A DNA stretch of 64,000 bases from Paraconexibacter algicola (GTDB lineage Bacteria > Actinomycetota > Thermoleophilia > Solirubrobacterales > Solirubrobacteraceae): the NCBI RefSeq assembly GCF_003044185.1, contig NZ_PYYB01000001.1, positions 806,001-870,000 on the forward strand, in the 5' to 3' direction. Numbering within the stretch: the first letter of the stretch is position 1; each line of letters opens with the position of its first letter. Made by a program: the position numbers and the translations under genes. The notes beneath the pieces were generated by a model. That model was not told where the DNA came from and searched no databases. It was given only the letters and a program-made list of their open reading frames with translations. Of the stretch, positions 24,875-45,300 are shown piece after piece.

Positions 24875-25260
24875 CCCCGATGTCCCACCGTCTGCCCCTC
24901 GGACTGCTCGCCGCCGCCATCGGCTGCCTGTCCCTGGTCCCCGCCTCGGCGTCCGCCGCGACCTGCTCGCTGAGCGCCGACGACAAGTACCACAAGGCCA
25001 ACAACGCCAAGCCGACCTACACCCGCTCGCTGAAGGCGACCGGTGGCGCGTCCTGCGCGACCGCGAAGAAGATGATCGGCGCGTACTACAAGTGCCGCGT
25101 CTCGGGCGGCAAGGGCAAGAAGGGCCGCTGCTCCAAGAAGGTCCTCGGCTACTCGTGCAGCGAGAAGCGCAGCAACGTCATCGCCACGCAGTTCGACGCG
25201 ACCGCCACCTGCCGCAAGGGCAAGGCGCGGATCGTCACCGCGTACACGCAGTTCACCTGA
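24871..25260 (+). CDS. small secreted cysteine-rich protein
   Basis: 129 residues. Signal peptide (LPLGLLAAAIGCLSLVPASASAA), then a compact basic domain with six Cys (ATCSLS, ASCATA, YKCRV, GRCSKK, YSCSEK, ATCRKG) that could form three disulfides. Many Lys suggest binding to an acidic polymer. The GTG at 24871 overlaps the previous stop (GTGA); an ATG at 24880 is an alternative start. Its place inside the O-acetylation operon suggests a role at the exported polysaccharide. No family recognised. Confidence 0.7.
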   Translation: MTPMSHRLPLGLLAAAIGCLSLVPASASAATCSLSADDKYHKANNAKPTYTRSLKATGGASCATAKKMIGAYYKCRVSGGKGKKGRCSKKVLGYSCSEKRSNVIATQFDATATCRKGKARIVTAYTQFT

Positions 25261-25289
25261 GCCCGCGGGCGTAGAGCGGTCCGGCGTCC

Positions 25290-26687
25290 ATGGTCTTCCC
25301 GACGATCACGTTCGCGATCTTCTTCGCGGTCGTGCTCCCGGCGTCCTGGGCGCTGATGCGGCACATGGGGGCGTGGAAGGCGTTCCTGCTCCTGGCGAGC
25401 TACCTCTTCTACGCCACCGCGGACTGGCGCTTCGCGTTCCTGCTCGGCGCCATCACCGTCGGCAACCACGTCTTCGCGAAGGCGATCCACGCGTCCGACG
25501 ACGCGCGGCGGCGGCTGCTGCTCGTGCGCGTCGCGGTCGTGCTGGACCTCGCCGTCCTCGGCGTCTTCAAGTACTACGGGTTCTTCGTCGAGCAGGCGGC
25601 GGGCGCCCTGGACGGGATCGGGCTCGGCGCGCCGTTCCCGGTCCTGGCGGTCGCGCTGCCGATCGGCATCTCGTTCATCACGTTCCACGCGATCAGCTAC
25701 GTCGTGGACGTGCACCGCCGTCAGCTCGAGCCGCCGACGCTCACCGACCTGGCGCTGTACATCAGCTTCTTCCCGCACCTCGTCGCCGGTCCGATCGTCC
25801 GCGCCTCGGAGTTCCTGCCGCAGCTGAAGGAGAAGCGCGACCCGTCGCAGGTCGCGGTCGGCGCCGCGGTCTGCCTGATCGCGCTGGGCCTGTTCAAGAA
25901 GATCGCGGTCGCCGACGTGCTCGCCCGCGAGGTCGTCGACCCCGTCTTCACGGTGCCGGAGGCGTACGCGTCCCCGGACGTGATCCTCGCGCTCTACGCC
26001 TACGCGGTGCAGATCTACTGCGACTTCTCCGGGTACACCGACATGGCGATCGGCATCGCGCTGCTGATGGGCCTGACGTTCCCGCAGAACTTCGACCGGC
26101 CGTTCCGCTCGCGCAGCCTCGCGGAGTTCTGGCGGCGCTGGCACATCACGCTCGGCCGCTTCCTGCGCGACTACGTGTTCATCCCGCTCGGCGGCAGCCG
26201 CAAGGGACCCGCGCGCGCCGCGGTGAACCTGTGGCTGACGATGCTGCTGGCCGGGATCTGGCACGGCCCGACCTGGGGGTTCGTGATCTTCGGCGCCATG
26301 CACGGCACCTGGATGGTCGGCGAGCGGATCGCGGCCGCGAAGACCTCATGGCGGCCGCCCGGCTGGGTCAGCACCGTGGTGATCGTGAGCTTCTTCGCGC
26401 TCTCCGCCGTGCCGTTCCGCTCCCCCGACTTCGACCTCGGCAGCGCCCTGATCGAAGGGATCCTCTCCCCTGGCGCCGCCACGCTGTGGACGCCGACGGC
26501 GGTGCTGCTGACGTTCGGCGTGATCTTCAGCCACCAGCTGCCCGCCGCCCCGCTGCGGGCGATCAAGCTCCGCATCGCCACCCTGCCGGTCCCGGCGCTC
26601 AGCGCCGGTCTCGCGGTCTCGATCCTCGCGGTCGCGGCCACCATCCCGTCCCAGGGCGTCCCGCCCTTCATCTACTTCCAGTTCTAG
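25290..26687 (+). CDS. MBOAT-family O-acyltransferase (AlgI-like)
   Basis: 465 residues with about eleven membrane helices, as in AlgI/PatA/DltB-type acyltransferases. Signatures: ISFITFHAISYVVDVHRR, FPHLVAGPIVRASEFLPQL, YCDFSGYTDMAIGIALLMG, EFWRRWHITLGRFLRDYVFIPLGGSRKG and the catalytic His in GIWHGPTWGFVIFGAMHG (about residue 325). It moves acyl groups across the membrane to an exported glycan or lipid. It has SGNH partners on both sides, the usual arrangement in alginate, peptidoglycan or exopolysaccharide O-acetylation systems. No polymer synthase is near, so the acceptor is unknown. Confidence 0.92.
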   Translation: MVFPTITFAIFFAVVLPASWALMRHMGAWKAFLLLASYLFYATADWRFAFLLGAITVGNHVFAKAIHASDDARRRLLLVRVAVVLDLAVLGVFKYYGFFVEQAAGALDGIGLGAPFPVLAVALPIGISFITFHAISYVVDVHRRQLEPPTLTDLALYISFFPHLVAGPIVRASEFLPQLKEKRDPSQVAVGAAVCLIALGLFKKIAVADVLAREVVDPVFTVPEAYASPDVILALYAYAVQIYCDFSGYTDMAIGIALLMGLTFPQNFDRPFRSRSLAEFWRRWHITLGRFLRDYVFIPLGGSRKGPARAAVNLWLTMLLAGIWHGPTWGFVIFGAMHGTWMVGERIAAAKTSWRPPGWVSTVVIVSFFALSAVPFRSPDFDLGSALIEGILSPGAATLWTPTAVLLTFGVIFSHQLPAAPLRAIKLRIATLPVPALSAGLAVSILAVAATIPSQGVPPFIYFQF

Positions 26688-27746
26688 ATGAGCGCTCCTG
26701 ACACCACCCCGCCCCGGTCGGAGGTCCCCCCGGCCGCCCACGTCCCCACCGCCGACGACCACCTCCGCGGTGGCGCCCGCATGACCGCGAAGGCCGCCAT
26801 CACGATGGTGCTGCTGACGTTCGCGCTGCTCGTCGTCGCCGACGGCGACGGCATCCGCCACCAGGGCGAGCGCATGGACGACGGCACCGAGAAGGACGTC
26901 GTGCTCGCGGTCGGCCGGCCCGCGGGCTGGATCGCCGACCAGCTGCCCGTCGCCCCGGTGGTCGACCAGATGCTCGGCTGGCTGTCCCCCGACGAGGACC
27001 TCGGCAACGACGACGGCACGTTCTCCGCGAGCGGCGGGACGGGCGGCGGCGCGGTGTCGCCGGGCGCCTTCGACCCGGCGGCGCTCGGCCTGCCGGCGGC
27101 CAAGCCGCGCAAGCTCCGCTCGCTGCTGGTGACCGGCGACTCGATGTCCCAGCCGATGGACGGGGAGCTCGCCCGCGCACTCACCCCGATCGGGGTGCGC
27201 ACGAAGCGCGACCCGAAGTTCGGCACCGGCATCTCGAAGACCGACCTCCTGGACTGGGGGGCGTACTCGGGCGTGCAGGCGCGGCGCGACGAGCCGGACG
27301 CGACCGTCGTGCTGCTGGGCGCCAACGAGGGCTTTCCGATGACCACGAAGGCCGGCACGGTCGAGTGCTGCGACCTCGACTGGGCCGCCGAGTACGCGAC
27401 CCGCGTGCGGGCGATGATGGCCACGTACACGCGCGGCGGGGCGGGACGCGTCTACTGGCTGCTGATCCCGAACTCCAACGACGCGGCGCGCAACCGGATC
27501 ATCAGGGTCGTCAACACGACGATCAAGCTCGCGGCGGCTCCGTACGGGGAGCAGGTCCGCGTCGTCGACATCGCCTCCGTGTTCACCCCGGGCGGCCGGT
27601 TCCGCTCGGCGATGGACGTCGACGGGCGCCCGCAGGTCGTCCGCGACCCCGACGGGGCGCACCTCAACGACGTCGGCGGGCGCGTCGCGGCGGACACGGT
27701 CCGCGAGGTGCTCGCGAAGGACTTCGACCTGGGCGGGGCCGCCTGA
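26688..27746 (+). CDS. membrane-anchored SGNH/DUF459-type O-acetyltransferase partner
   Basis: 352 residues. A short cytoplasmic N-terminus precedes one membrane helix (AAITMVLLTFALLVVADGDG, about 32-50), a linker, and an SGNH domain: LLVTGDSMSQPMDGEL (Ser, about 148), LLGANEGFPM (Asn, about 208), RDPDGAHLNDVGGRVAAD (Asp-His, about 325). The ATG abuts the MBOAT stop without any gap, so translation is coupled. It shares its plan with the protein at 23534, and the two may act at different sites or on different acceptors. Known relatives transfer acetyl from the MBOAT to the exported polymer. Confidence 0.85.
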   Translation: MSAPDTTPPRSEVPPAAHVPTADDHLRGGARMTAKAAITMVLLTFALLVVADGDGIRHQGERMDDGTEKDVVLAVGRPAGWIADQLPVAPVVDQMLGWLSPDEDLGNDDGTFSASGGTGGGAVSPGAFDPAALGLPAAKPRKLRSLLVTGDSMSQPMDGELARALTPIGVRTKRDPKFGTGISKTDLLDWGAYSGVQARRDEPDATVVLLGANEGFPMTTKAGTVECCDLDWAAEYATRVRAMMATYTRGGAGRVYWLLIPNSNDAARNRIIRVVNTTIKLAAAPYGEQVRVVDIASVFTPGGRFRSAMDVDGRPQVVRDPDGAHLNDVGGRVAADTVREVLAKDFDLGGAA

Positions 27747-27816: not shown

Positions 27817-30018
<2,202 letters not shown>

Positions 30019-30450
30019 TCAGGGGGTTGTCTCGGAACGGCAGTCGGGGCACAGGCCCCGGAAGACGACCTCGGCCTCGTCGATGACGAAGCCGTGGTCG
30101 TCGGACGCGACCAGGCACGGCGCGTGGCCGACGGCGCACTCGACGTCGGCGATCGCCCCGCAGGATCGACAGACCACGTGGTGGTGGTTGTCACCGACCC
30201 GTGACTCGTAGCGGGCGACCGAGCCCGGAGGCTGGATGCGGCGCACGAGCTGCGCGTCGGTGAGCGCCTGCAGCACGTCGTAGACGGCCTGCTGGGAGAC
30301 GTCGCGCAGGTCCCGGCGGACGTGGCCGATGATCGAGGCCGTGTCCGCGTGCGGGTGGTCGTGCACCACGCCGAGGACCGCGATCCGGGGTCGCGTCACG
30401 CGCAGGGAGGCCCCGCGGAGAAGCTGCTCGAGATCGGCGGTCGCCGGCAC
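30019..30450 (-). CDS. furA: Fur-family redox/metal repressor
   Basis: 143 residues. Winged-helix DNA-binding half (LRVTRPRIAVLGVVHDHPHADTASIIGHVRRDLRDVSQQAVYDVLQALTD), then the dimerisation half with the metal ligands NHHHVVCRSCGAIADVEC (about 85-100) and CPDC near the C-terminus (structural zinc). The GTG at 30450 is chosen because it lies 7 nt after a CATACT -10 box with a -35 TGGACT at 17 bp; the longer frame starts inside the promoter. In mycobacteria furA also gives a leaderless mRNA and represses furA-katG, with relief by peroxide. The katG neighbour supports the same role here. Confidence 0.92.
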   Translation of the reverse strand: MPATADLEQLLRGASLRVTRPRIAVLGVVHDHPHADTASIIGHVRRDLRDVSQQAVYDVLQALTDAQLVRRIQPPGSVARYESRVGDNHHHVVCRSCGAIADVECAVGHAPCLVASDDHGFVIDEAEVVFRGLCPDCRSETTP

Positions 30451-30457
30451 TCCGACG

Positions 30458-30487
30458 AGTATGCCACTCATTCTGGAACAAGTCCAG
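30458..30487 (-). promoter_or_regulatory. leaderless furA-katG promoter with candidate FurA operator
   Basis: Minus strand -35 TGGACT (30481-30486), 17-bp spacer, -10 CATACT (30458-30463). A perfect inverted repeat CTGGA-N5-TCCAG (30473-30487) covers the -35 box, where FurA would block polymerase. Confidence 0.65.
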
Positions 30488-30523
30488 TTTACGGCGGTGG
30501 AGGCGCGCCAGCCCGGCGCGGGA

Positions 30524-30550
30524 TTCACACGACGGTCACAGGACCGTCAC
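30524..30550 (+). promoter_or_regulatory. PHO box: three direct repeats at 11-bp spacing
   Basis: TTCAC (30524), GTCAC (30535) and GTCAC (30546) recur at exactly 11 bp, each followed by A or C. This is the arrangement of actinobacterial PhoP boxes. It lies about 60-80 bp before the PhoX-type phosphatase start, with TACCAA (30574-30579) as a possible -10. Confidence 0.6.
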
Positions 30551-30606
30551 CCATGTGCGACACGGTGCGCAGGTACCAACCCCACCCCACGGAGTCCGCA
30601 CACACC

Positions 30607-32013
30607 ATGGCACCCGTTCCCCCCACCGCCGTCGAGCCGGACGAGCCCACCGGCCTCTCCCGCCGCGAGATGCTCTCGCGCAGCGCCCAGGGCGGCCTCG
30701 GCCTCGCCCTCTCCGGCAGCCTCGGCCTGCTCTTCGGCGGCCCCGCCGCCGCCCACGGCCGCCCCGCCGGCTACGGCCCGCTGATCCCCGACCCCGCCGG
30801 GATCCTCTCGCTCCCGCAGGGCTTCCACTACTCGGTCATCGCCGAGTCCGGCGTCACCCGCCTGGAGACCGGCGAGCCCACCCCCGCCGACCCGGACGGC
30901 AGCGCCGCGTTCCCGCTGCGCCGCGGCGGCACCGCGCTGATCGTCAACCACGAGATCTCCGGCAGCGACGCGCCGACCGTCCCCACCGTCCCCGACCACA
31001 CGTTCAACCCGGCCGCCGGCGGCGGCACCACGACGATCGAGGTCGACGCGCGCGGTCGCCGCGTCCGCGAGTACGTGTCGCTCGCGGGCACCGTCAACAA
31101 CTGCGCCGGCGGTCGCTCGCCGTGGGGCACCTGGCTGACCTGCGAGGAGACGGAGGCGACCGTCGCCGGCGTCCAGCACGGCTGGGTCTTCGAGGTCGAC
31201 CCGTACGACCAGCGCGCCAACCGCGCCCCGAAGCCGATCAAGGCGCTCGGCCGGTTCTCCCACGAGTCGGTCGCCGTCGACCCGCTGCGCGGCGTCATCT
31301 ACGAGACCGAGGACGCCGGGACCCCCAACGGCCTGTTCTACCGCTGGACCCCGCCGCGCGGCCTGCGCCGGCTCGGCCGCGGCGTCCTGCGCACGCTGCC
31401 CGACGATGCGGGCACGCTCGAGGCGCTGCGGGCCCTGCGCCCGGACGGGACCTTCGTGCCGGACCTCTCCCCCGCCCGCGAGGTCGGGACGCGGTACCGC
31501 ACCCGCTGGGTCACCGTCCCCGACCGGTTCGCGGCGACCACCCCCACGCGCAAGCAGGCCTACGCCGAGGAGCCGACCCGCTCGCGCAAGCTCGAGGGCA
31601 TGTGGTGGGGCGACGGCGGCTGCTACTTCGTCTGCTCGTTCGCCCGCACCGCCGACGGCAGCGCCGGGGTCCACGACGGGCAGGTCTGGTTCCTCGACCC
31701 GCGCGCGCAGACGATCGAGCTGAAGATCCACTTCGAGTACACGCCCGACCAGGACGGCGACGCGGACGGGCCCGACAACATCACCGTCAGCCCGTACGGC
31801 GGGCTGGTCATCGCCGAGGACGGGGAGGGCGCCAGCCACCTCGTCGGCTCGACCGCCTCCGGGGAGACGTTCTTCCTCGCGCGCAACGAGCTGGCGGGCG
31901 AGTCGGAGTTCACCGGCTCGACGTTCTCGGCCGACCGCCGCACCCTGTTCGCCAACGTGCAGTCCCCCGGGCACGTGTTCGCGATCACCGGGCCGTTCCG
32001 CCGCCAGCGGTAG
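30607..32013 (+). CDS. PhoX-type phosphatase (DUF839), Tat-exported
   Basis: 468 residues. A Tat signal (LSRREMLSRSAQGGLGLALSGSLGLLFGGP, about 16-50) implies export folded with its metal cofactor. The body is the PhoX/DUF839 beta-propeller: NHEISGSDAP, NNCAGGRSPWGTWLTCEETEA, GRFSHESVAVDP, YETEDAGTPNGLFYRW, LEGMWWGDGGCYFVCSFA, DGPDNITVSPYGGLVIAEDGEG. PhoX enzymes use Ca and Fe to release phosphate from organic esters outside the membrane. The upstream three-repeat PHO box fits induction by phosphate starvation. ACGGAG precedes the ATG. A perfect 13-bp terminator follows. Confidence 0.88.
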   Translation: MAPVPPTAVEPDEPTGLSRREMLSRSAQGGLGLALSGSLGLLFGGPAAAHGRPAGYGPLIPDPAGILSLPQGFHYSVIAESGVTRLETGEPTPADPDGSAAFPLRRGGTALIVNHEISGSDAPTVPTVPDHTFNPAAGGGTTTIEVDARGRRVREYVSLAGTVNNCAGGRSPWGTWLTCEETEATVAGVQHGWVFEVDPYDQRANRAPKPIKALGRFSHESVAVDPLRGVIYETEDAGTPNGLFYRWTPPRGLRRLGRGVLRTLPDDAGTLEALRALRPDGTFVPDLSPAREVGTRYRTRWVTVPDRFAATTPTRKQAYAEEPTRSRKLEGMWWGDGGCYFVCSFARTADGSAGVHDGQVWFLDPRAQTIELKIHFEYTPDQDGDADGPDNITVSPYGGLVIAEDGEGASHLVGSTASGETFFLARNELAGESEFTGSTFSADRRTLFANVQSPGHVFAITGPFRRQR

Positions 32014-32058: not shown

Positions 32059-33213
32059 TCAGCCCGCGGCCGGGCCGCAGGTCGCGAACGTGCGGGTCGT
32101 GCGCAGCAGCCGGCCGTCCGCGGTCCGCCCGCGGACGCGGACCACGGCGACCCCGGGCGGCCGGCCGCGCAGGTCGACGCGCACGCGCGCGGGCGCCCGG
32201 CCGGTGGCCGCGACGCGCACCCCGTCGATCGTCGCCACGACGCCACGGACCGGCGTGCGCCGCGAGCCGAGCGTCACCGTCAGCACGCGGCGCGAGGCGC
32301 AGGTCGCCCGGACCGGGGCCGCCGGGGCGCTGCCGACGCTCCAGGCGCGCGTCGCCGGGGACGGGTCCGGACGGCCGAACCCGTCGACGGCGCGGACCGC
32401 GAAGACGTGGTCCCCGACGCCCACCCCGGTGAGCGTGAGCCCGGAGGCGGCGCAGGCGCTGAAGGCCCCGCCGTCGACCGCGCACTCGAACCACGGCGCC
32501 GGATCGTCGGGGGACGAGTAGGAGAACCGGGCGGTCGGATCGGTCAGCCGGCCGAAGGGCCCCGCGTCGATGCGGGTGTCGGGCGGCGTGGCGTCCGAGC
32601 TCCAGGTCACGACGGCGGGCGTCGGGTCGGGGTTGCCCGCCACGTCGAACGCGCGCACGAGGACCTGGTGGGCCCCGTCGGCGAGCCCGCTCAGCGCGAG
32701 CTCCGCCCCGCACGGGTTCAGCGGCCCGCCGTCCACCGCGCAGCGGTACCCGGCGACGGGCTCGTCGGCGGAGAACGTCAGTCGCGCCTCGCCGCTCGGG
32801 CTGCGCGCGGGCGGCGCGGTGACGATCGTCGTCTGCGGCGCGGTGACGTCGAGCACGAGCGAGACCGTCGCGGGGGTCGGGTCGACGGTGACGCCGTCCG
32901 AGGCGATCGCGGCGATCCGGAGCTCGAAGGGACCGTCGGACAGCCCGAACGCTCCCGCGGAGATCGGGGAGTCGCAGCCGAGGTCGCCGGACCCGACGAC
33001 GGTGCAGACGAACCCGCCGCCGCCGTCGCCGACGGCGCGGAAGACGATCGGGGTCGACGCGTTCACCCGGGTGCCGGACGCGGGCGAGTCGATCACGGTG
33101 TCCGGTGGGTCGACGAGGGCCTGCGCGAGCGCGCCCGGGGCGGCGACGAGCCAGGCGAGCGCGGCGATCAGCGCCACGAGGACGCGGCGGCGGGCGGGAC
33201 GGTGCTGCGGCAT
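32059..33213 (-). CDS. secreted multi-Ig-domain protein
   Basis: 384 residues: signal peptide (VLVALIAALAWLVAAPGALAQA), then four beta-sandwich repeats of about 80-90 residues starting at about 35, 125, 210 and 290. Each carries the pattern DTxIDxxP ... FxFSADEPxxxYxCAVDGGxxxxC ... LxxGxHxxxVRAxDxxGNxDPTPA, the Ig-like module common in Thermoleophilia surface proteins; paired Cys in each may be disulfide bonded. The last about 65 residues are Arg/Thr rich. It probably acts as an adhesion or wall-surface protein. GAAGGAG precedes the ATG at 33213, 32 bp behind the CotH-like gene on the same strand. Confidence 0.8.
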   Translation of the reverse strand: MPQHRPARRRVLVALIAALAWLVAAPGALAQALVDPPDTVIDSPASGTRVNASTPIVFRAVGDGGGGFVCTVVGSGDLGCDSPISAGAFGLSDGPFELRIAAIASDGVTVDPTPATVSLVLDVTAPQTTIVTAPPARSPSGEARLTFSADEPVAGYRCAVDGGPLNPCGAELALSGLADGAHQVLVRAFDVAGNPDPTPAVVTWSSDATPPDTRIDAGPFGRLTDPTARFSYSSPDDPAPWFECAVDGGAFSACAASGLTLTGVGVGDHVFAVRAVDGFGRPDPSPATRAWSVGSAPAAPVRATCASRRVLTVTLGSRRTPVRGVVATIDGVRVAATGRAPARVRVDLRGRPPGVAVVRVRGRTADGRLLRTTRTFATCGPAAG

Positions 33214-33245: not shown

Positions 33246-34838
33246 TCATCGGACGGGGACCCGGACGGTGGCGGTGAGGGCGCGGCGCGGGGCCGCGGAC
33301 AGACGGGCGCGGACGAGCAGCGGGCGGCCCTCGCGGCGGGCGCGCGCGAGCGCGGTGGCCGCGATCCGGCAGGTGAGGACGACCGGGCGGTCCGCGGCGA
33401 GCGGGCGGGTGCGGCGGCAGCCGGGCGCCGTCACGGCGACGGTCCCGGCGTACGGGGCGCGGACGGTGACGCGCAGCCGCCCGCGGTCGCCGAGCGTCGC
33501 GCGGGCGCGCAGCCGTGCGGGCGCGACGGGGGCGGCCGGCGCGGTGGTCGGGCCGGCCGCCGTCGCGGGCGCCGTCGTGCCGAGGTCCAGCACGGCGGGC
33601 GGCGCCGCCGCGGCGGGCGGGTCGGACGGGACCGACACCGGCGTCCGCTCGGCGGGCCCCGGCCCGGCCGCGGGGGTACGCAGGTCCGCGTCGGCGGGGC
33701 GCTCGCGCGCGAACCGGACGGTCGCGTCGACCGCGGCGGCGATCTCCGCGAGGCTGTGCTCGCGGCGCGGGTCGCGCTCCTGCCACGGGGCGAGGAGCGC
33801 GGCGGTGCGCTGCGCGAGCTCGTCCAGGCCGGCGGTCGCGAGCGTCGTGCGCACGTCGTGGACGGCGTCGGCGTAGGCGCGCAGGCAGGCCGGGTCGCTC
33901 TGGCAGCCGGCGGCGAGCGCGCCGCCCGCCGCGGCGCCGTAGGGGATCCGCTCGCGGAACGCCTGGTCCATGCCCCACGGCAGCAGCGAGAAGACGCCGT
34001 CGGGGCCCGCGTGGAAGAAGACGTTGGACGGGGTCTCCCCGGCCAACCCGGCGTAGCCGTCGAACTGCCCGACGTACCGCTCGGTCGCGAGGTAGCGGAC
34101 GAGCGCGGGGACGTCGAGCGCGGGCGCCACCCGGCGCGCCCAGCCCTCGCCCGGCGTCGCCGCGAGGGCGGCGAGCCGCTCGAGGTCGGTGCGATCGTCG
34201 GGACCCTGGTCGAGCTCGAACGCGTCGGTCATCCCCGGGACCGCGTCGGCCGGCAGGGACGGCGGTCCCTCCGCCTCGTACAGGTGGGTGGTCGCCGGGA
34301 AGTGCCGGGCCAGGAGCGCGGGCTCGTAGGTCTCGACGTTGGCGTAGAGGCCGTAGGGCTCGCCGTCGAGCCGCACGAACGCGTAGCCGACCCGCGGGGC
34401 GGGCAGGCCGACCGCCGCGAACGCCGTGTACGCGAGCAACTCGTGGACCATCGACGGGTCCTGAACCATGTTGTTCAGCGTCAGGGTCCGCACGCCGTCG
34501 GGGCGGTGCCCGCTGTCGAAGCGCAGCTTGAAGGCGGCCTTGCCGTCGAGGTCGCGGAAGGAGGTCGAGCCCTTCAGCCGGATCCGGCCCGGGGCCGCGG
34601 CGACCGTGCGGCCCGGGGTGCGGACGGCGATGGTCGCGGGCGCGTAGGTCGCGGGTGCGCGCCGCAGCGCGTCACGGCTGCCCGCGGCGAGCGTCACGTC
34701 GATCTCGGCGACGGCCGCCGGATCGTAGAGCCAGGCAGCGGGGAGCGCCGCGGCGTGCGCGGTGGCTCCCGGTACGGCCGCCGCGCAGAGCGCGGCGGCC
34801 ATCGTGGGGAGGATCGCCGGGAACCGGCGACCCCTCAT
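33246..34838 (-). CDS. CotH-kinase-like secreted protein
   Basis: 530 residues. Signal peptide (AILPTMAAALCAAAVPGATAHAA), then the CotH core at about 40-350: RIRLKGSTSFRDLDGKAAFKLRF, TLTLNNMVQDPSMVHELLAYTAFAAVGLPAPRVGYAFVRLDGEPYGLYANVE, and NVFFHAGPDGVFSLLPWGMDQAFRE. CotH proteins are atypical secreted kinases that phosphorylate surface proteins. Here the usual PWDxD reads PWGMD, so one of the two acidic residues is lost and activity may differ. A Pro/Ala linker and a C-terminal Ig-like module follow. The ATG overlaps the upstream gene's stop by 4 bp (ATGA). Confidence 0.8.
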   Translation of the reverse strand: MRGRRFPAILPTMAAALCAAAVPGATAHAAALPAAWLYDPAAVAEIDVTLAAGSRDALRRAPATYAPATIAVRTPGRTVAAAPGRIRLKGSTSFRDLDGKAAFKLRFDSGHRPDGVRTLTLNNMVQDPSMVHELLAYTAFAAVGLPAPRVGYAFVRLDGEPYGLYANVETYEPALLARHFPATTHLYEAEGPPSLPADAVPGMTDAFELDQGPDDRTDLERLAALAATPGEGWARRVAPALDVPALVRYLATERYVGQFDGYAGLAGETPSNVFFHAGPDGVFSLLPWGMDQAFRERIPYGAAAGGALAAGCQSDPACLRAYADAVHDVRTTLATAGLDELAQRTAALLAPWQERDPRREHSLAEIAAAVDATVRFARERPADADLRTPAAGPGPAERTPVSVPSDPPAAAAPPAVLDLGTTAPATAAGPTTAPAAPVAPARLRARATLGDRGRLRVTVRAPYAGTVAVTAPGCRRTRPLAADRPVVLTCRIAATALARARREGRPLLVRARLSAAPRRALTATVRVPVR

Positions 34839-37093
34839 CGCGTGACGACCCGGGGCAGCGACGCGACGACGCGCCCGGCGGCGTTGCGGGCGGACAGCCG
34901 GACCTCGACGGCCGAGCCGGTGACGGGCAGCGGCGCGCGCAGCGTCACGGTGCCGTCGGCGGCCGCGCGCCCGGTGCTGCGCAGCAGCACGCCGCCACAT
35001 CCCGGGGTGCGCACGCGCAGCCGCACGGTGCGGGTCCGCCGGGCCAGTGCGCGGCCGATCGAGCCCTGCACGACGATCTCGGTCCCCTGGACCGTCGCAC
35101 CGGTGAGCCGCAGCGGGGCGGTCGGCGGCACCGCGTCGGAGCGCTGCCCGCTGACGCGGGCGCGGTCCGCTCCCTGCAGCCCGGCGCCGGGCCGCGCGAT
35201 CGTGACGGTCGCGTTCCCGGCGGCGTCCAGGGTCGTGCTGCCGAGGCGCTCGAGGCCGCGGTGGACGGCGGCGGGCAGCCCGCCGAGGCTCGTGCCGGCG
35301 GCGATCGTGTAGCGGACGGTGCGGCGCGTCGGCCGGGTGACGCCGAGCAGGACGCGCGGCGGGGTCGTGCACGCGGTGGAGGCGCCCCGCACGGTGGTGA
35401 CGCGGTAGCCGCAGGTCACCGACGTGGCGTTGCCCGCGACGTCCCGGGCGGTCAGGACGACGGTCCGCTCGCCCGGGCTGCGGGTGTCGGCGGGTGCCTC
35501 CACGGCGCTCTCGGCGATCCCGGACCCGGTGTCGCCCGCGGTGCCGCGGACGATCCCGGCACTGCCGACGGCGAACTCCGGTGTCCCGGCGGGGCAGGCG
35601 ACGGCCGGCGCGGTCGCGTCGACGCGCACGGTGCGGCGCAGGACGCCCGAGGCCTGGCCGAGCGCGTCCTGCGCGGCGACCTCGACGACGCGGACCCCGT
35701 CGGCGAGCGTCCCGGACGGGGACAGCGAGCAGCCGTCGGGGAGGGTCGCGGCACTCGGCGAGGGCACGGGCGCGTCGATCGCGCAGCGCACCCGCGCACC
35801 GGCGGGCGCCGGGCTCGTGGCGACGGCGGCGGTCGGGGGCGTGCGGTACCAGCCCTCGCCCCCGTCGGGAGCCGCCGGGGTCAGGCGCAGCTCGGGCTCC
35901 AGCGACACGAGCAGCCGGGCGGTGAGGACGCGGCCGATCTCGAAGGGGGGCTCGTCGATCGTCGCGATCGCCCGGTCGTCGAGCTGCGCGAGCCCGGCCG
36001 CGATGTTCGGGGGCAGGGCGGCGAGCCCGACGGTCAGCGGCTCGAGGAACCAGCCCGGGTCCTGGCGGTCGACGGCGACCGGTCGCCGGACCGGCCCGTC
36101 GTCACCGCTGAACTGGCGGGCGACGAGCACGCGGCGACCGTCGGTGGCGGCCGCCGATTGGACACCGGGGGTCAGCCCGTCGGTGCGCGCGGCGCTCACC
36201 GTGCGGGTGACCGCCAGCTCCCCGGCCCAGCCGCCCGCCGGGCGGGGCAGGACGTACGCGTCGACGTCCACGCCGGGGGCGCGCCGGTCGATCGACGGGA
36301 CGACGATCGCCTCGTCCGCGACGACGGGGTCGCCGACCACCCCGCCGACGGTGGCGGTGGCGGCCGGGGCCGTCGGGTCGAGCGCGGCCCAGCCGGTCGC
36401 GGGGCGCTCGTAGACGATGACCGTGCCGGGGTTCCCGGCCATGACGACCAGCAGCGATCCGCGGGCGCCGACCGCGCTCGTCGTCGGCAGCGTGCTCACG
36501 GGTCGGTCGGGGAGGACCGTCGCGGCCGGCTGGCCCTCGCCGAAGCCCGTGGGGCCGGGCTCCCAGACGGTCACGGGCCCGCCGCGCCGCGAGCGCCCGG
36601 GCGCGACGCCGGGCCCGGCGACGAGCGCGGTCCCGGCGAACGCGAGCACGTCCGCGTTGGCGGGGCGCGCGAGCGTCACGGGCCCGCTCCAGCCGGCGGT
36701 GCCGCGCTGCCAGACCAGGACGTCACGGCCGGCGGTCACCGCCACGACGCCGTCCCGGGCGGCGATCGCGTTCGGGCTCTGGGGCGTCCCGCTGGCGCTG
36801 TCCGGGATCGTGAGCGTGGTGTCGGGCCGGCGCTCGGCGAGCGTCGCCGGCCAGCCCGCCACCGGGCGGTCGTAGAGGTCGACGACGCCCGGGAACGCGT
36901 CGTCGACGGTGAAGCGCGGGCCGCGGGCGACGGCGACGAGGCGGTCGCTGCCCGCCAGGACGGCGGTGCGCCCGTCGAGGTCGGTCACCGACGGGACGAG
37001 CGGGGCCGCGGGCACGAGCGGGCCGGTGGCGGCGTGCCCGACCGTCGGGAACGCGGCGAGCGCGAGCAGCGCCGTCGAGAGCTGGCGAATCAT
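34835..37093 (-). CDS. secreted beta-propeller plus Ig-domain protein
   Basis: 752 residues. Signal peptide (LSTALLALAAFPTVGHAA). Residues about 30-400 are FG-GAP-like propeller blades: NAIAARDGVVAVTAGRDVLVWQRG, DVLAFAGTALVAGPG, SAVGARGSLLVVMAGNPGTVIVYERPATGW, QSAAATDGRRVLVARQFSGDDG. Then Ig-like modules with paired Cys (RVRCAIDAPVPSPSAATLPDGC; SVTCGYRV) and a C-terminal sheet domain (TRTVRLRVRTPGCGGVLLRS). It is a likely surface protein; it is coupled by a 4-bp overlap to the CotH-like gene, so it may be that protein's phosphorylation substrate or carrier. Confidence 0.75.
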   Translation of the reverse strand: MIRQLSTALLALAAFPTVGHAATGPLVPAAPLVPSVTDLDGRTAVLAGSDRLVAVARGPRFTVDDAFPGVVDLYDRPVAGWPATLAERRPDTTLTIPDSASGTPQSPNAIAARDGVVAVTAGRDVLVWQRGTAGWSGPVTLARPANADVLAFAGTALVAGPGVAPGRSRRGGPVTVWEPGPTGFGEGQPAATVLPDRPVSTLPTTSAVGARGSLLVVMAGNPGTVIVYERPATGWAALDPTAPAATATVGGVVGDPVVADEAIVVPSIDRRAPGVDVDAYVLPRPAGGWAGELAVTRTVSAARTDGLTPGVQSAAATDGRRVLVARQFSGDDGPVRRPVAVDRQDPGWFLEPLTVGLAALPPNIAAGLAQLDDRAIATIDEPPFEIGRVLTARLLVSLEPELRLTPAAPDGGEGWYRTPPTAAVATSPAPAGARVRCAIDAPVPSPSAATLPDGCSLSPSGTLADGVRVVEVAAQDALGQASGVLRRTVRVDATAPAVACPAGTPEFAVGSAGIVRGTAGDTGSGIAESAVEAPADTRSPGERTVVLTARDVAGNATSVTCGYRVTTVRGASTACTTPPRVLLGVTRPTRRTVRYTIAAGTSLGGLPAAVHRGLERLGSTTLDAAGNATVTIARPGAGLQGADRARVSGQRSDAVPPTAPLRLTGATVQGTEIVVQGSIGRALARRTRTVRLRVRTPGCGGVLLRSTGRAAADGTVTLRAPLPVTGSAVEVRLSARNAAGRVVASLPRVVTR

Positions 37094-37250: not shown

Positions 37251-39227
37251 TCAGCGGAAGGTGAGCGCCTTCGTGGTCGTGGTGCCGATGGTGGCTCCGC
37301 GCGCGTCGACCGCCGCGGCGGTGAGCCGCAGCTTCAGCGCGCGCCCGCGCCGGACGGCCTTCAGCCGGCGCGTGCCCGCCTTGGTGGTTCGCAGCGTCAC
37401 CCGGACCGTGCCGGCCCCGGTGCGGCGGCCGCTGCCGGTCGCGACGACCGTGCGGCCGGCCGTCAGGCGCAGCCGCACCGAGCAGGTCGCGGTGCAGCGC
37501 ACGGTCGCCCGCCACCGCTTCGCGCGGAGGGTCTTCAGCACCGCCTTGGGCGTCGTGACCCGGCCGAGCGGCGAGCGCACGAGCGGGGCCGTCCCGCCGC
37601 CCGGCGTCGTGCCGCCACCCGGCGTGGTCCCGCCGCCCGGCGCCGGCACGGCGGCGGTGCGGACGGTGAACGGCGCCGAGAACTCGCTGTCGGACGCCGA
37701 GACGCCCAGCCGGTAGACGGTGTCGGGCCGGGCGCCGTCGACCCGCAGGGTGCCCGTCAGCGGTCCGGCCGCGTCGGGCAGGCCGTGGCGGTCGATCGTG
37801 CGAACCTCGGCGTCGTCGAGGAGCCGCAGGTCGATCTCGGGGATCTGCGCGCTCGGGTTCGAGGTCAGGGTGTAGGGCACCTCGATCGTCGTGGCGGTGA
37901 CCGTGGGCGCTCCCAGCGTGAGGGCCGGCGCGAGCGGCGGCGTCGGCCGTGTGAACGAGGCGACCGGCGTCGAGAGCACGTCCCCGTCCTCGGTCCGCAG
38001 CACGGCGCGGTAGTGGACGGTGGCGCCGTTGGGCGCGTAGGCGAAGGCACCGTCGGAGGCGAAGGCGTACTGCCCGTCGTCGTAGTCGCGGCCGACGATC
38101 CGCTTGGCGGTGACCGTCCCCAGCGCGGGGGTGGTGCCGTACTCCAGCCAGGTCTCGCCGACCAGCCCGTTGGTGTCGACGCTCCAGGTCGGGATGCCGA
38201 TCCCCTGGACGTCGCGCAGCGCCAGGCGCGGCGTGCCGCACGGCCTGCTGGATGCGGGGAGCTGGGCGGTCGCCGGGGACGGGTCGAGGTTCAGGGCCCG
38301 GTCGACCGCCTGTACGGTCAGCGTGCGCGTCCGCGCGCAGAGGTTGGCGACGAACGCGCCGGTCGCCGCGCACGCCGACGGGGTCAGGCTGCCGATCCCG
38401 CAGCGGAAGGTCGCGTCCTCGTCGGCCGCGAGGCTCAGCAGCGGCGTGGCGGGATCGGTGGCGTTCACGCCCGGGGTCGCGGTCTGCGGCGGGGTGCGGT
38501 CGACGAGGAACGGCAGCACGAAGGGTGAGGGGTCGCTGAGGCCCTCGGCGGTCGACGTCGCGCTGACCGTGTGGGCGCCCTCGGACAGCGCGGCCAGGGA
38601 CCGGGCCTGCAGGCACGGCTGTGGAGCCCCGCCGTCGACGCTGCAGCTGCCCGCGAGATCGGTGCCGCGGGCCAGGGCGACCCGGCCCGCGACCCGCGGC
38701 GCGACGAGGCCGCCGACGCCGGGGAGGATGTCGGCCGTGGTCGCGCCCCCGCGGTACAGCTCGCCGCTGAAGCCGCCGGGCGCCGCCGAGATCTGCCCGT
38801 CCTCGACCACGATCGTGTACTCGCGGCCGGGGACCGCGCGCCAGGTCTTCACGGTGGACGGACGGGCCCCCGGGCAGGCGTTCGTCGCCGACGCGGCGAA
38901 CCCCCGCGGCGTGGCGTTCTCGTCGTAGACGTTCAGCAGCGGGCGCTCCGTGCCGGTGATCGGCCCGCACAGCTCCACCGAGGTCACGCCCGCACCCGCG
39001 GGAGCGATCCACCGGTACCAGACGTCCCGTCCACCGAGCACGACACCCTCCGGCGAGTCGGTCGCGTCGGTGAGCGTCCCGGAGAAGGCACCGCCCCCCG
39101 CCGCGATCGACTCCGCGTTCAGATACTGGTCGTTCGGTGGCGCGGCAGCCTGCGCCAGGGGCGCCGCGGCGACCAGCCCGAGTCCCGTCGCGATGAGCGT
39201 GGCGATCGTCCGTGCGCGCGTCCCCAT
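37251..39227 (-). CDS. secreted protein with N-terminal PPC-like domain and Ig modules
   Basis: 658 residues from the ATG at 39227; the signal peptide (TLIATGLGLVAAAPLAQAAAP) fixes this start. Residues about 28-140 resemble bacterial pre-peptidase C-terminal domains (PPNDQYLNAESIAAGGGAFSGTLTDATDS, VWYRWIAP, REYTIVVEDG). Ig-like and fibronectin-like modules follow (about 180-560), a (TPGGG)n linker (about 540-560), and a C-terminal Arg/Thr-rich sheet (RATVRCTATCSVRLRLTAG). It has no protease domain, so it is probably a binding or structural surface protein. A -10 box sits 8 nt before the ATG. Confidence 0.75.
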   Translation of the reverse strand: MGTRARTIATLIATGLGLVAAAPLAQAAAPPNDQYLNAESIAAGGGAFSGTLTDATDSPEGVVLGGRDVWYRWIAPAGAGVTSVELCGPITGTERPLLNVYDENATPRGFAASATNACPGARPSTVKTWRAVPGREYTIVVEDGQISAAPGGFSGELYRGGATTADILPGVGGLVAPRVAGRVALARGTDLAGSCSVDGGAPQPCLQARSLAALSEGAHTVSATSTAEGLSDPSPFVLPFLVDRTPPQTATPGVNATDPATPLLSLAADEDATFRCGIGSLTPSACAATGAFVANLCARTRTLTVQAVDRALNLDPSPATAQLPASSRPCGTPRLALRDVQGIGIPTWSVDTNGLVGETWLEYGTTPALGTVTAKRIVGRDYDDGQYAFASDGAFAYAPNGATVHYRAVLRTEDGDVLSTPVASFTRPTPPLAPALTLGAPTVTATTIEVPYTLTSNPSAQIPEIDLRLLDDAEVRTIDRHGLPDAAGPLTGTLRVDGARPDTVYRLGVSASDSEFSAPFTVRTAAVPAPGGGTTPGGGTTPGGGTAPLVRSPLGRVTTPKAVLKTLRAKRWRATVRCTATCSVRLRLTAGRTVVATGSGRRTGAGTVRVTLRTTKAGTRRLKAVRRGRALKLRLTAAAVDARGATIGTTTTKALTFR

Positions 39228-39362: not shown

Positions 39363-42300
39363 TCAGCTGCTGCAGACCGGCAGCAGCGCGAAGTTCAGCC
39401 CGAGGACGTTCAGCACGTTGATGTTGCCCAGACCCGTCGAGATCAGCAGCTCGCGCCGTCCGCCGCAGGCCAACGAGCCCGTGGAGGTCGAGGCGGGCGC
39501 CGTCACGATCGAGCCGTCGCCGCGCGCCCACACGAAGCGGGCCGAGGCGGTCGCCTTCGACGCCTGCGTGCCGACGTTGAACGAGTTCACCAGCGGCGGG
39601 TAGGAGATCCCGTCCATCACGAACGGCTGCGCCACCCCGCCCGCGTTGCGCGAGTCGAAGAACATGTAGAGCAGCGGCAGGTTCTGCCCGAACGAGCTGA
39701 TCGTCGTGTTCGCCGGCCCGGTCCCGAGGTCCAGGCTGAACGTCTTGAACGTCAGGCCGCCCGCGTTCGTGTCCGGGTCACCGAACTTGATCTCCGGGTC
39801 GGTCGGCGTGAGCTTCAGCTTCGCGCGGAAGGTCGTGAAGTCCGTCGCCGCCGTGCCGGTGCCGAGCGACCCCTGGTCGTCGAAGTTCAGCGACGCCGAG
39901 GCCTTGTACGGCCGGCCGTTGCCGTTGGCGTTGTAGCGGTTGCCGATCTTGTCCTGCGGCGGGCCGCTGCACGGGTTGAAGATGTTGCCGCCCGAGCACC
40001 CGCGCGGCCCCGAGGTCGTGTTCCCCGGGACGTTGGGGTTCGGCCGGCGGCACCCGTTGCCCGGGTCGAGGCACGCGGTGAGCTTCGGCGCGACGTTGTC
40101 GAACGCGAGCTTCGCCGACGGGATCGACCCGAGGTTGGTCGCGAACAGCTCCAGGCGCGCGAGCTTCTGCGAGTTGTCGAAGTTGATCGACGACGGCACC
40201 GACGGGTCGTTGGAGAGGTTCACGAACAGCTTCGTCGAGGCCCCCGGGCGGTTGATCAGGCCGTCCACGTCCGACACGGTGGTCCCCGCGGGGATCGCCG
40301 CGTCGATCGTGATCGGCCGCGCCTTCGCCGGGTCCTGCTGCAGCTGCAGCGCGACCGGCTCGAGGTTGACGTCGATGACCTTCGCCCCCGTGAGCCGCAG
40401 GGCGATCCCGAAGTTCGCCGGATCGGTCGCGAACTTCAGCAGGTCGTTGCTGGCCGTGGCCTGCGTGACCGTGCCGGGGATCGGCGACGCCGGGTCGATG
40501 AACTGCGGCAGCGTGCCGGAGCCCCCGTGGGCGGCCAGGCGGATCTGCCCGATCGGGTCCGGCTGCCCGGCCCCGTTGAGCCCGGCGATCGTCGCGAGCG
40601 AGCCCTCCTCGGGGATCGTGATCGTCGTGCTCAGCGGCAGGTCGTGCAGCGCCGCCTGGACCACGGACGCCCCGGGCAGCAGCTCCAGGCCGCTGGTGTC
40701 GAGCGTCACGAGGCCGATGCGGGCGTTGCCGAGGACCTGCAGCCGCGTGCCGTTCGGCCCGTTGGCGCCCGGGTTGTCCCCGAGCTCGAGCGTCAGGTCC
40801 GACGGGAGGCTGTCGACGAGCGCCTTGACACTGACCGGCGCGCCGCCCTCCTCGAGCGGCACCTCGGCGTCGATGTCGAGCTTCTTGCCGCCGTTGGTGA
40901 GGCCGCGCAGCTTGACCGGGTCGAGGTCCAGCGTGATCGACCGGACGCCGGACAGCCGCGTGCGGATGTCGAAGCCGGAGGTCTGGCTGAACTTCAGGAG
41001 GTCGTTGAGCGTGCCCGCGCCGCCCGCGGCCGCGTCGTAGTCGTCGGCCGGCAGGTTCGCCGTGCCGCTGCCCGCGGCGAGCCGCAGCTGGCCGATCGGG
41101 GTGAGCTGGCCCTGCGCGTCCCGCGCGGTGACCCGGGCGAGGTCGCCCTGGTCGGGCAGCGTCACGTCGACGTCGACCGGCAGGTTCTCGATCTCCGCCT
41201 CGACGGCGTCGGCGCCCTCCAGCAGCTCGAGGCCGCGGGTGGAGAGCTTGACGAGGTCGATCGGCTCGCTGCCCTTGAGCATGAGCTTCGACCCGTTGAC
41301 GGTGTCGCCCTCGAGGTTGTCCCCGAGGCCGAGCTCGACGACGGCGGGCAGCCGGTCGATCGTGCCGGCGACCTCGAGGTCACGGCGCGGCGTGCCGTCC
41401 TCCGCGGTCTGCGGGAGCTTGGCGTCGACCGTGAACACGCGGCCGGCCTGCATCTCGGTCTTCAGCACGAGCGGCGCGAGGTTGACCTCGAGGCGCTTGA
41501 GCTGGAAGACGCGCAGGGCGAGCGCGAGCTGCTCCTGGGTCGGGTCCTCGGCCTTCTCCTCGTCGGTGAGGGTGGCATCGATGATCGCCCCGGCGGTGCC
41601 CGCGGGCAGCACCGGGTAGGAGCGGTTGCGGCTGCGCGCACGGATGTTCACGGAGCCGATCGGCTGGTCGGCCGTCAGCTTGATGCCCGAGAGGTCGGTC
41701 GCCTCCGGGTCCGCCTCGTTGGCCGTGCCGAGACCGAGCGTGAACGCCTGCGGGACGTCCCGCAGGTCGACCTCGATGCCGGTGGCACCGAGGAAGAGCG
41801 GCTCGCGCCCGTCGATGTCGGCGAAGATCTGCCCGATCGGCGCGGAGCCGGTGTACCGGACCTCCCCGGCCTGCAGGTCGAGGTCGAGCGTCAGCTCCTG
41901 CGGCAGGTCGAGGATCTTCGCCTGCGCCGCGAACGCCTCGGTCGAGACGTCGGCGACGAACGGGCCGCCGGCGGTCTTGGACTTCAGGCTGATCGCCTCG
42001 TCGAACTGCACGCTGAGCTCGCGGAGCTCGAGCACGCGGATGCCGACGCGGAACGGCTCGCCCGGCTTGGAGCGCAGGACCGCGCCCTGGGCCGGCTGGC
42101 CCTCCGAGGTCGGGTAGGTGAACTGGCCGGCCTCGTCGGAGGCGGCGAGCTCGATCTTGCCGACCGGGGTGCCGTCGGCGTCCGGGTCGTTCGGGTCGAT
42201 CGCCTTGACGGTCGCGCGCCCGTTGGCCTGCGAGAACGACAGGGCCACGTCGGACGGCAGGCGCTCGATGTCGCCCTGGATGTAGCGGCCGCCGCCGAGG

Positions 42301-45300
42301 ATCGGCTCGTCGGACTCGGCGGACAGCGTCAGGCGCTGGATGCCGACCGGGTCGCCGTTCTCGTCCCGGCCCTTGAACGTCAGGGCGTTCGGGTTGTCGC
42401 TGGAGCCGTCGAGGTCGACGGCGAGCTCCGCCGAGGCGGGCAGGTCGGCGATGTCGGCGACCGCGGTGAGCAGGCCGTCGACGTCGACGTCGGCGACGAA
42501 GCGGCTGCCGGCGGTGCGGTCGATCTGCAGGCCGATGCCGCTGCCGGTGTCGAGGCCGACCGCGAGCTTCTTCAGCCCGGTGACCTTGACCGCGATGCCG
42601 TAGTCGTCGGCGGTGTCGTGGTAGCGGACGCCCTGCTCGGTGAGCGGGAACGGCGCGTCCACGTCGTCGGCGACGTGCAGCTCGAGGTCGCCGAGCGCCT
42701 GGCCGTCCGGGATCGCGACCGTGGCGCCGTTGCCGGCGGAGTCGAGGCCGACGGTGAGGTCGGACGGGACGTCGGTGAGGCGACCCTGGAGCTTGCGCGC
42801 CCGGTCGAAGATCGGCTGGTCGGAGCGGGCCGAGAAGGAGATCTCGTCCACGCCGACGGGCTCGTCGTCGTCGTTGCGGCCCGCGTAGGTGAACCGCGCG
42901 TTCTGCAGGTCGAACCCGAGCGAGGTGCGGGCGGGCAGCTTGTCGATGCGCGCCGTGGCCGTCAGGTCGTCGGTGGTGGCGTCGATCGAGAACGGCGTGC
43001 TGCGCAGCCGCGCGTCGATGTCGACGTCCTGGCCGTCGAGCTGCAGCCCGATGCGGCGGAGGTCGAGGAGGCGGGCGGCGAGCACGAACGGCTGGCCGGC
43101 CTTGTCCTGGTAGATCGCGCCCTGCTCGCCGTCGGCGATCGCCGGGGCGGCCTGGTCCTCGGGGAGGTCGGTCGCGAGGATCGACACCTCCTCGATCGGG
43201 GAGTCCGCGTCGACCGTCGCCGACGGGGCGGCGGGGTCGATCGTGATCGAGGCCCGCTTGGCGAGCCTGCGGATCGTGCCCTCGACGCGGGTGGCGCGCC
43301 CGAGCAGCGTGCCGGTGCGGGCGATCGCCTTGAGGGTGATCTCGTCGATGACGTCGCTGTTGTCGAACTGCAGCGCGCCGCCGTCGAGGTCGAGCGTGGC
43401 GTCGAGCGCGGACGGCAGGTCGGCGATGCGGGCGTCCGCGTCGAGGTCCGCGGTGCGGGCCTTGATCGTGAACGGGCCGCTCGCGGTGCGGGTCACGAGC
43501 GTGACGGTGTCGTCGAGGAGCGCCACGACCTTCTTCAGGCCGCGGACGCGGGCGCCGACCGCGTAGCGGACGGGCGTGTCCAGCAGGACGGCGCCCTGGT
43601 CGTCGTCGGCCGGGAGGGCGTCGGCGAGGCCGGCGACCGTGTCGGCGGCTGCGACCTCGACGAGGCCGATCGGCTCGTTGGCCTCGACGCGGGCGCCGTT
43701 GCCGGCCTGCGCGAGGTCGACGACGGTCAGCGGCGCGAGGCCCTCGACGCGGGCGCGGACCGCGGTCGCGCGGCCGAGCAGCGGCCGGGTGGAGACCGCG
43801 TCGAGCAGGACGCGGTCGATGCCCTCGCCGTGGCCGTCGACGGTGAGCTTGCCGGCGGGCAGGTCGAGGGTCGCGTCGAGCTCCTTCGGGAGGTTCTCGA
43901 TGCGGCCGGTGGCGTTCAGCTCGTCGGTGCGGAAGCGGACCGAGAACGGGCCGCCCTCCGTCTTGGTGCCGACGCGCACGACGTCCCCGGCGACGCGGGC
44001 CGCGACCTTCTCGAACTCGCGGATGCGGGCCGCGATCGTGAACTCGGTGGCGGTGTCGACGACCTTCGCGCCCTGCTCGTCCCCGGCCGGGAGGTCGGCG
44101 GCGCGGTCGGGCGGGGTCGCGGAGACGATGACCTCGGCGGAGCCGATCGGCTCGTTGGCCTCGAGGCGGGCGCCCTCGCCGTCCTGCGCGATGTCGAGCA
44201 CGAGGTCGGCGGGGATCCGCTTGACGGTGGCGTCGAGGTACTTCGCCCGGCCGAGGAGGGCCTCGCGGGCCGCGAGGGCGACGTCGAGGCGCTCGATCGT
44301 GGCGGGCGAGTCGTCGGCGTCGCGACCGACCACGGTGACCTTGCCGTTCGGCAGGTCGAGGGTCGTGTCGAGCTTCGCCGGCAGGTCGCGGACCTGGGCG
44401 GTGCCGGTGAGGTCGTCGGTGTCGACCGCGAGGTCGAACGGGCCGCCGCGCGTGTGCGTCCTCAGCCGCACGAGGTCCTGGCCGAGCGCGGCGCTGACGG
44501 ACTTCAGGCCGAGGATGCGGGCGCCGACGGCGAAGGTGCCGCCGGTGCGGTCGACCAGGGTCGCGCCCTGGCGGTCGTCGGCGGGCAGGTCGCCGCCGGA
44601 GCGGAAGTCGATCGCGCGGTTCGCCGCGACGAGCTCGATCGAGCCGATCGCGTTGGAGGCGTCGACGGACAGGTCGTCCCCGTCGGTGTCGAACCGCAGG
44701 TCCAGGGAGGCGGGGATGTCCTTGACGCGCCCCTGGATCCGGGTGGCGCGGGCGATGAGCGCGCTGCCGGGCCGCGGGTCCGCGGCCGTCAGGTCGAGCT
44801 GCCCGATGCCGCGGGGGCTGCCGTCGGCGGCCTTGCCCTCGAAGGTCAGGCGGCCACCGTCGAGGTCGAACCCGAGGTCGACGTCGGCGGGCAGGTCGCG
44901 GATGTCGCCCGCGACGTCCAGCGCGTCGGTGCGCAGGGCGACCGAGAACGGGCCGCCCGCCGTGACGGCGGAGAGGCGGGGCGCCCCGGTGGTGTCGAAG
45001 GCGACCTTGCGGATCCCGTCGACGCGGGCGGAGACGAGGTACTCGCCGCCGGGCAGGTCGCGGTAGATGGCGCCCTGGCCGCCGCCGGCCGGGAGGGTCT
45101 CGGGGCCGTTGGAGGCGATGATCTCGGCGCGGCCGAGCGCGCGGTCGAGCGTGATGCCGCCCTTGCCGTTCGCGGTCTCGATGCGCGCGTCGAGGCTCGA
45201 CGGGAGGTCGACGAGCGTGCCCTTGAGCTTCGTGGCGCGGCCGAAGAACGGGGTCGTGGAGACGGCGTCGAGCTCGATCCGGCCGATCCCGGTGCCGTGG

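Follow-up and report, generated by a model that had tools for sequence, protein, structure and literature searches.

Here, we propose that a CotH-like protein of Paraconexibacter algicola belongs to a conserved branch within the family of CotH kinase-like proteins, where an active-site aspartate essential in Bacillus subtilis has been replaced by glycine and an aspartate two residues downstream is always present. The gene lies on the minus strand (33246..34838) of a 64,000-nucleotide stretch of contig NZ_PYYB01000001.1, here called the window, and encodes 530 aa (P0001). The branch, which we term G-x-D after the altered motif (D-x-N, D-x-D or D-x-S in other CotH proteins), is a conserved variant of the family at its catalytic site, and its sequences suggest that it may still be catalytic. 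For the window protein itself, we see an even chance that it is an apparently exported, ATP-dependent phosphotransferase whose metal ligand has moved to Asp291. On catalytic residues alone, every member of the branch would be classed as dead. An active branch would provide a clear example from nature of a metal ligand that has moved within a kinase-like fold, and would point to phosphorylation at the surface of many environmental bacteria; a dead one would constitute a large and strictly conserved pseudokinase branch. No description of the branch was found in the literature searched, although the founding paper (Nguyen 2016) may show one.

Family and fold

The translated open reading frame matches Pfam CotH (PF08757) at 1.8e-30 over residues 86-381 (33696..34583, minus strand), covering positions 1-319 of the 322-position profile with 107 bits against a curated cut-off of 23.8. 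A structural model of residues 28-395, built with 72 relatives, reached a predicted local distance difference test score (pLDDT) of 93.9. Foldseek returned Bacillus cereus CotH (5jda) as the best solved match to this model (E 1.5e-19), and in VIA the model aligned with B. cereus CotH 5jd9 at Z 35.7 and a root-mean-square deviation of 2.5 over 330 residues, with the next family at Z 11.5. The kinase-like folds of Fam20, HipA and PI4K are distant fold matches (Z about 8-11.5) that share the architecture only, and none is among the PDB sequence matches. The profile of the G-x-D branch likewise matches 5jd9 (7.3e-35). By descent, the window protein belongs to the CotH family in both sequence and fold.

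The sequence-only reading had described a secreted CotH-type protein. The CotH part stands on the Pfam match, while secretion is suggested by a signal-peptide-like N-terminal stretch, MRGRRFPAILPTMAAALCAAAVPGATAHA, judged by eye. At the other end, an Ala/Pro/Thr-rich linker and tail (residues 395-530; 33249..33656, minus strand) has no relative among the CotH loci compared.

The altered motif and the residues around it

In the accessible text of PMC7821199, the D228Q and D251A forms of B. subtilis CotH are termed catalytically inactive. In 5jd9, 23 residues separate the DGF Asp from the first Asp of PWDYD, the same spacing as from D228 to D251 in B. subtilis, and we therefore take D251 to be the first Asp of PWDYD. 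The PWGMD motif of the window protein (residues 287-291; 33966..33980, minus strand) aligns with the B. cereus CotH motif PWDYD, as does the P-W-G-x-D of the branch profile with the P-W-D-Y-D of 5jd9, so that Gly289 occupies the D251-type position, preceded by Trp288 and followed at +2 by Asp291.

According to the available portion of PMC12189002, CotH keeps equivalents of PKA D166, N171 and D184, has no DFG motif, and sandwiches adenine between Tyr142 and Trp245. D251 would on this account correspond to PKA D184. Counting residues, with numbering assumed to begin at 0 as in the 5jda chain range of 0-358, Trp245 is the Trp of PWDYD and aligns with Trp288; Tyr187 aligns with Tyr142 in one alignment and is one residue off in the other. 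Asp260 (34059..34061, minus strand) aligns with B. subtilis D228, and Asn272 (34023..34025, minus strand) with the CotH Asn five residues past the D228-type Asp, for which the same portion of PMC12189002 suggests a role of the PKA N171 type. With B. subtilis and B. cereus CotH (PF08757; 5jd9, 5jda) the window protein thus shares the fold over 330 residues, the D228-type Asp, the following Asn and the adenine-sandwich Trp. It differs from them in having Gly for the D251-type Asp, a constant +2 Asp, a Cys pair, a signal-peptide-like start and an extra C-terminal tail, and its gene is without a CotB- or CotG-like neighbour.

Conservation within the branch was read from the window protein and 72 of 84 references; these 73 sequences were selected for Gly at the motif, so its presence in 73/73 is not counted as evidence. 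K89, D127, D260 and D291 are found in 73/73, K100, E169 and N272 in 72/73, and W288 in 66/73. The Cys pair C312/C318 (33885..33905, minus strand), possibly a disulfide, is nearly as constant (C312 in 70/73, C318 in 66/73).

Census and tree position

Across 129 CotH domains, 94 were G-x-D, 22 D-x-N, 12 D-x-D and one D-x-S, and the +2 Asp accompanied the Gly in 94/94; no Gly occurred without it. These were retained from 143 domain hits after dropping 2 identical rows, 10 with fewer than 240 aligned columns (two PWGTD, one doubtful APYGHD, the rest D-type, misaligned or gapped) and 2 in an odd context, both with Asp at the position. Counted earlier with the branch profile (n = 121), the types stood at 96 G-x-D, 19 D-x-N, 5 D-x-D and a single D-x-S, which has Glu in place of the D228-type Asp.

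The sampling is biased toward the G-x-D branch. A genome collection was scanned with the patterns TLNNMV and KAAFK, which exclude the motif itself, and the best 80 of 110 relatives gave 80 loci, whose domain rows were G-x-D in 89/92. Of these loci, 75 were counted as having a G-x-D domain; the other five appear to match the contigs of L003, L004 and L010-L012, on each of which one is also present. In loci L001-L065, which came from family surveys and one protein search, 10/49 rows were G-x-D, with the window protein included twice and one row doubtful. The G-x-D records are labelled Actinomycetota, Myxococcota, Pseudomonadota, Chloroflexota, Verrucomicrobiota and Bdellovibrionota (six phyla), of which single labels may be wrong, since most of the records are metagenome bins. 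With 93 other domains of the G-x-D type, we rejected the possibility that the motif of the window protein is a private mutation, a sequencing error or a sign of decay.

The altered PWGMD motif had earlier raised the question of whether the protein is an active kinase, with loss of an uncompensated, essential Asp as the refuting outcome. The missing Asp is indeed the one whose loss inactivates B. subtilis CotH in the accessible text of PMC7821199, yet the unvarying company of Gly and +2 Asp makes an uncompensated loss less likely, and the +2 Asp may compensate for the lost metal ligand.

An unrooted tree was built from 86 of the 129 domains (all non-G domains, all from L001-L065 and every second one of the remainder), with the motif columns excluded. 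The G-x-D domains form one side of a single branch (support 97/95, recovered in 96% of 200 bootstrap trees), and all 51 G rows have the +2 Asp. The 35 rows that keep the first Asp have Asn (22), Asp (12) or Ser (1) at +2, a distribution that needs 5 changes on the tree. Domains with the first Asp thus differ at +2, whereas those without it all have Asp there. A simple account is an ancestor with both Asp residues, from which some lines would have lost the second Asp and the window's branch the first. Two further characters separate the sides: the Cys pair occurs in 0/35 D-type rows (one has the second Cys alone), and the TLNN block in 0/35 D-type rows against 47/51 branch rows, a block that the scan pattern favoured. 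The Actinomycetota D-x-N and D-x-D proteins share the family with the G-x-D branch and, in several loci of both types, VTC or DUF4956 neighbours, but keep the first Asp, vary at +2 between Asn, Asp and once Ser, and lack the Cys pair.

A proposed relocation of the metal ligand, and its alternatives

In the mechanism that we propose, the metal-binding Asp (B. subtilis D251) would have given way to Gly289 while Asp291, two residues downstream, became obligatory and took over the metal. ATP would be bound against Trp288 and an aromatic residue near Tyr187, Asp260 and Asn272 would be used as in CotH, and the enzyme would work on a component of the surface, outside the cytoplasm. For the branch as a whole, we hold it somewhat short of an even prospect that the catalytic metal Asp shifted by two positions once (D-x-D to G-x-D), with the proteins staying active exported phosphotransferases across the six labelled phyla. 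Members that adjoin VTC polyphosphate polymerase genes may even take their phosphate from a donor other than ATP.

Several points weigh against an active, relocated site. The unrooted tree shows a single switch to Gly, so covariation of Gly and the +2 Asp is not demonstrable by repeated events, and the +2 Asp may predate the switch, as D-x-D forms exist. The Trp of the motif is lost in 7/73 branch members. An exported kinase would also be without an evident supply of ATP, and a ligand-binding pseudokinase that is itself conserved could likewise keep the conserved residues.

Such a pseudokinase, binding nucleotide or another ligand and serving as a surface scaffold or sensor without phosphate transfer, is the alternative that survives best, though we consider it unlikely. 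In its favour, all 94 branch domains are missing the metal Asp that the accessible text of PMC7821199 makes essential in B. subtilis, and many members carry modules that suggest adhesion. In the 63 full-length branch members aligned (the window protein and 62 of 88 references), all of which match CotH, we found LTD in 24, the C-type lectin domain Lectin_C in 15, MopE in 15 and fn3 in 6. Pseudokinases often lose some of the catalytic residues, however, whereas hardly any variation is seen here at the D228-type Asp, the two Lys, the Glu or the Asn, and the +2 Asp is fixed in the G-x-D branch only.

A different chemistry on the same fold, for instance nucleotidylation or a kinase activity directed at a sugar or phosphate polymer in place of a protein, appears improbable. 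Families of the same clan perform glutamylation and AMPylation (PMC9758233, as far as its available text goes), the C-type lectin domain is present in 15/63 members, and some branch members adjoin genes for VTC or for NAGPA phosphodiester glycosidases. Nothing speaks directly against it, but the window's own genome (95.6% complete) has no match to VTC or DUF4956.

Neighbours of CotH genes in other genomes

Across the 80 scan loci, the recurring neighbours were DUF4956 in 12, an NAGPA phosphodiester glycosidase in 9, a cadherin-like repeat protein in 8 and VTC in 5, counted from crude gene calls and named by a Pfam scan of one member per cluster. VTC and DUF4956 genes adjoin both G-type and D-type CotH, and one locus (L056) has a single open reading frame that contains both a VTC and a CotH domain. 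A Clostridium perfringens locus with VTC-domain and CotH genes close together is described in the available part of PMC2879425. In nine loci (L108, L116, L117, L121, L124, L126, L128, L132 and L140) the CotH variant adjoins an NAGPA-like phosphodiester glycosidase, with a cadherin-like repeat protein in 8/9; this grouping is a conserved one.

Near the window's genome, which has one copy, CotH is rare: none of the 7 other genomes of the genus has it, and, counting the window's genome, it is found in 5/61 genomes of the relatives set, 18/399 of the class and 31/396 of the phylum. We rejected a viral or plasmid origin, as two scans of viral contigs gave no relative and the one plasmid match, in Alicyclobacillus, was distant (24% identity).

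The upstream protein as a possible substrate

Directly upstream of the CotH gene, and also on the minus strand, lies the gene for a 752-aa protein (P0002; 34835..37093) with five propeller-like repeats of about 50 aa followed by weakly Ig-like (immunoglobulin-like) modules; judged by eye, it appears to be exported. The 4-bp ATGA overlap reported from the sequence was borne out by bases 34835..34838 of the minus strand, where TGA ends the P0002 gene and ATG opens the CotH gene, and co-translation is likely. The original description of the pair was right in its main points but left the order to be stated, in which the surface protein precedes CotH and a third gene, also Ig-like, follows it.

P0002 had been described as a propeller/Ig surface protein. 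Five VxVYxRPxxGW-type repeats begin at residues 71, 125, 174, 225 and 277 (spacing 49-54), a number reached in 0/2000 shuffles for a pattern that was picked after viewing the protein; self-alignment over all lags scored 49, barely above the 47 that shuffles reached at most. The propeller fold is unproved, as the single-sequence structure model reached a pLDDT of only 34, and the Ig assignment corresponds to a sub-threshold Big_13 match (E 0.073).

It had further been suggested that the two proteins are kinase and substrate, and the ATGA overlap and the signal-peptide-like starts of both (by eye) would fit this, as would the clustering of Bacillus cotH with cotG and cotB noted in the accessible text of PMC7821199. 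ATGA overlaps are common in bacteria and are weak evidence for functional pairing. P0002 had no match in 60 close relatives, and the 398 further genomes of the class yielded just three, all partial and to residues 403-586; these searches score only some candidates per genome and could miss distant relatives. Nor was there a match in the open reading frames of at least 150 aa at other CotH loci, mostly within flanks of 1.5 or 8 kb that were often cut by contig ends. The Ser/Lys/Arg-rich repeats of known CotH substrates are in neither P0002 nor its neighbour P0003 (below), which both lack Lys and have at most 16 Ser, Lys or Arg per 60 residues. With no relatives beside the CotH relatives searched and no feature of a known substrate, P0002 was rejected as a conserved substrate partner; that the CotH protein phosphorylates it is very doubtful, and we do not favour it.

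Surrounding genes

The third gene, for a 384-aa protein with Ig-like repeats (P0003; 32059..33213, minus strand), begins 32 bp downstream of the CotH gene and is probably in the same operon. Upstream of P0002, also on the minus strand, are two genes for proteins with signal-like starts, at 37251-39227 and from 39363 to about 46769. The proteins of 37251-39227 and 32059-33213, which flank the pair, have related Ig-like repeats in common (blastp 1e-13), and this places the CotH gene inside a cluster of likely surface proteins. The protein of 39363-46769, with about 2470 aa, a repeat spacing of about 474-510 nt and no Pfam match at E 0.01, is possibly a giant surface protein with no known family assigned.

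Adjoining the CotH cluster, and convergent with it, is a gene for the alkaline phosphatase PhoX (30322-32013, plus strand; Pfam 5.3e-77). Farther along, a peroxidase-family gene (27817-30528, minus strand), which we take to resemble catalase-peroxidase, has a Fur-family regulator directly upstream. At 23534-27746 (plus strand), an MBOAT acyltransferase and two DUF459/SGNH-type proteins together look like a polymer acylation unit.

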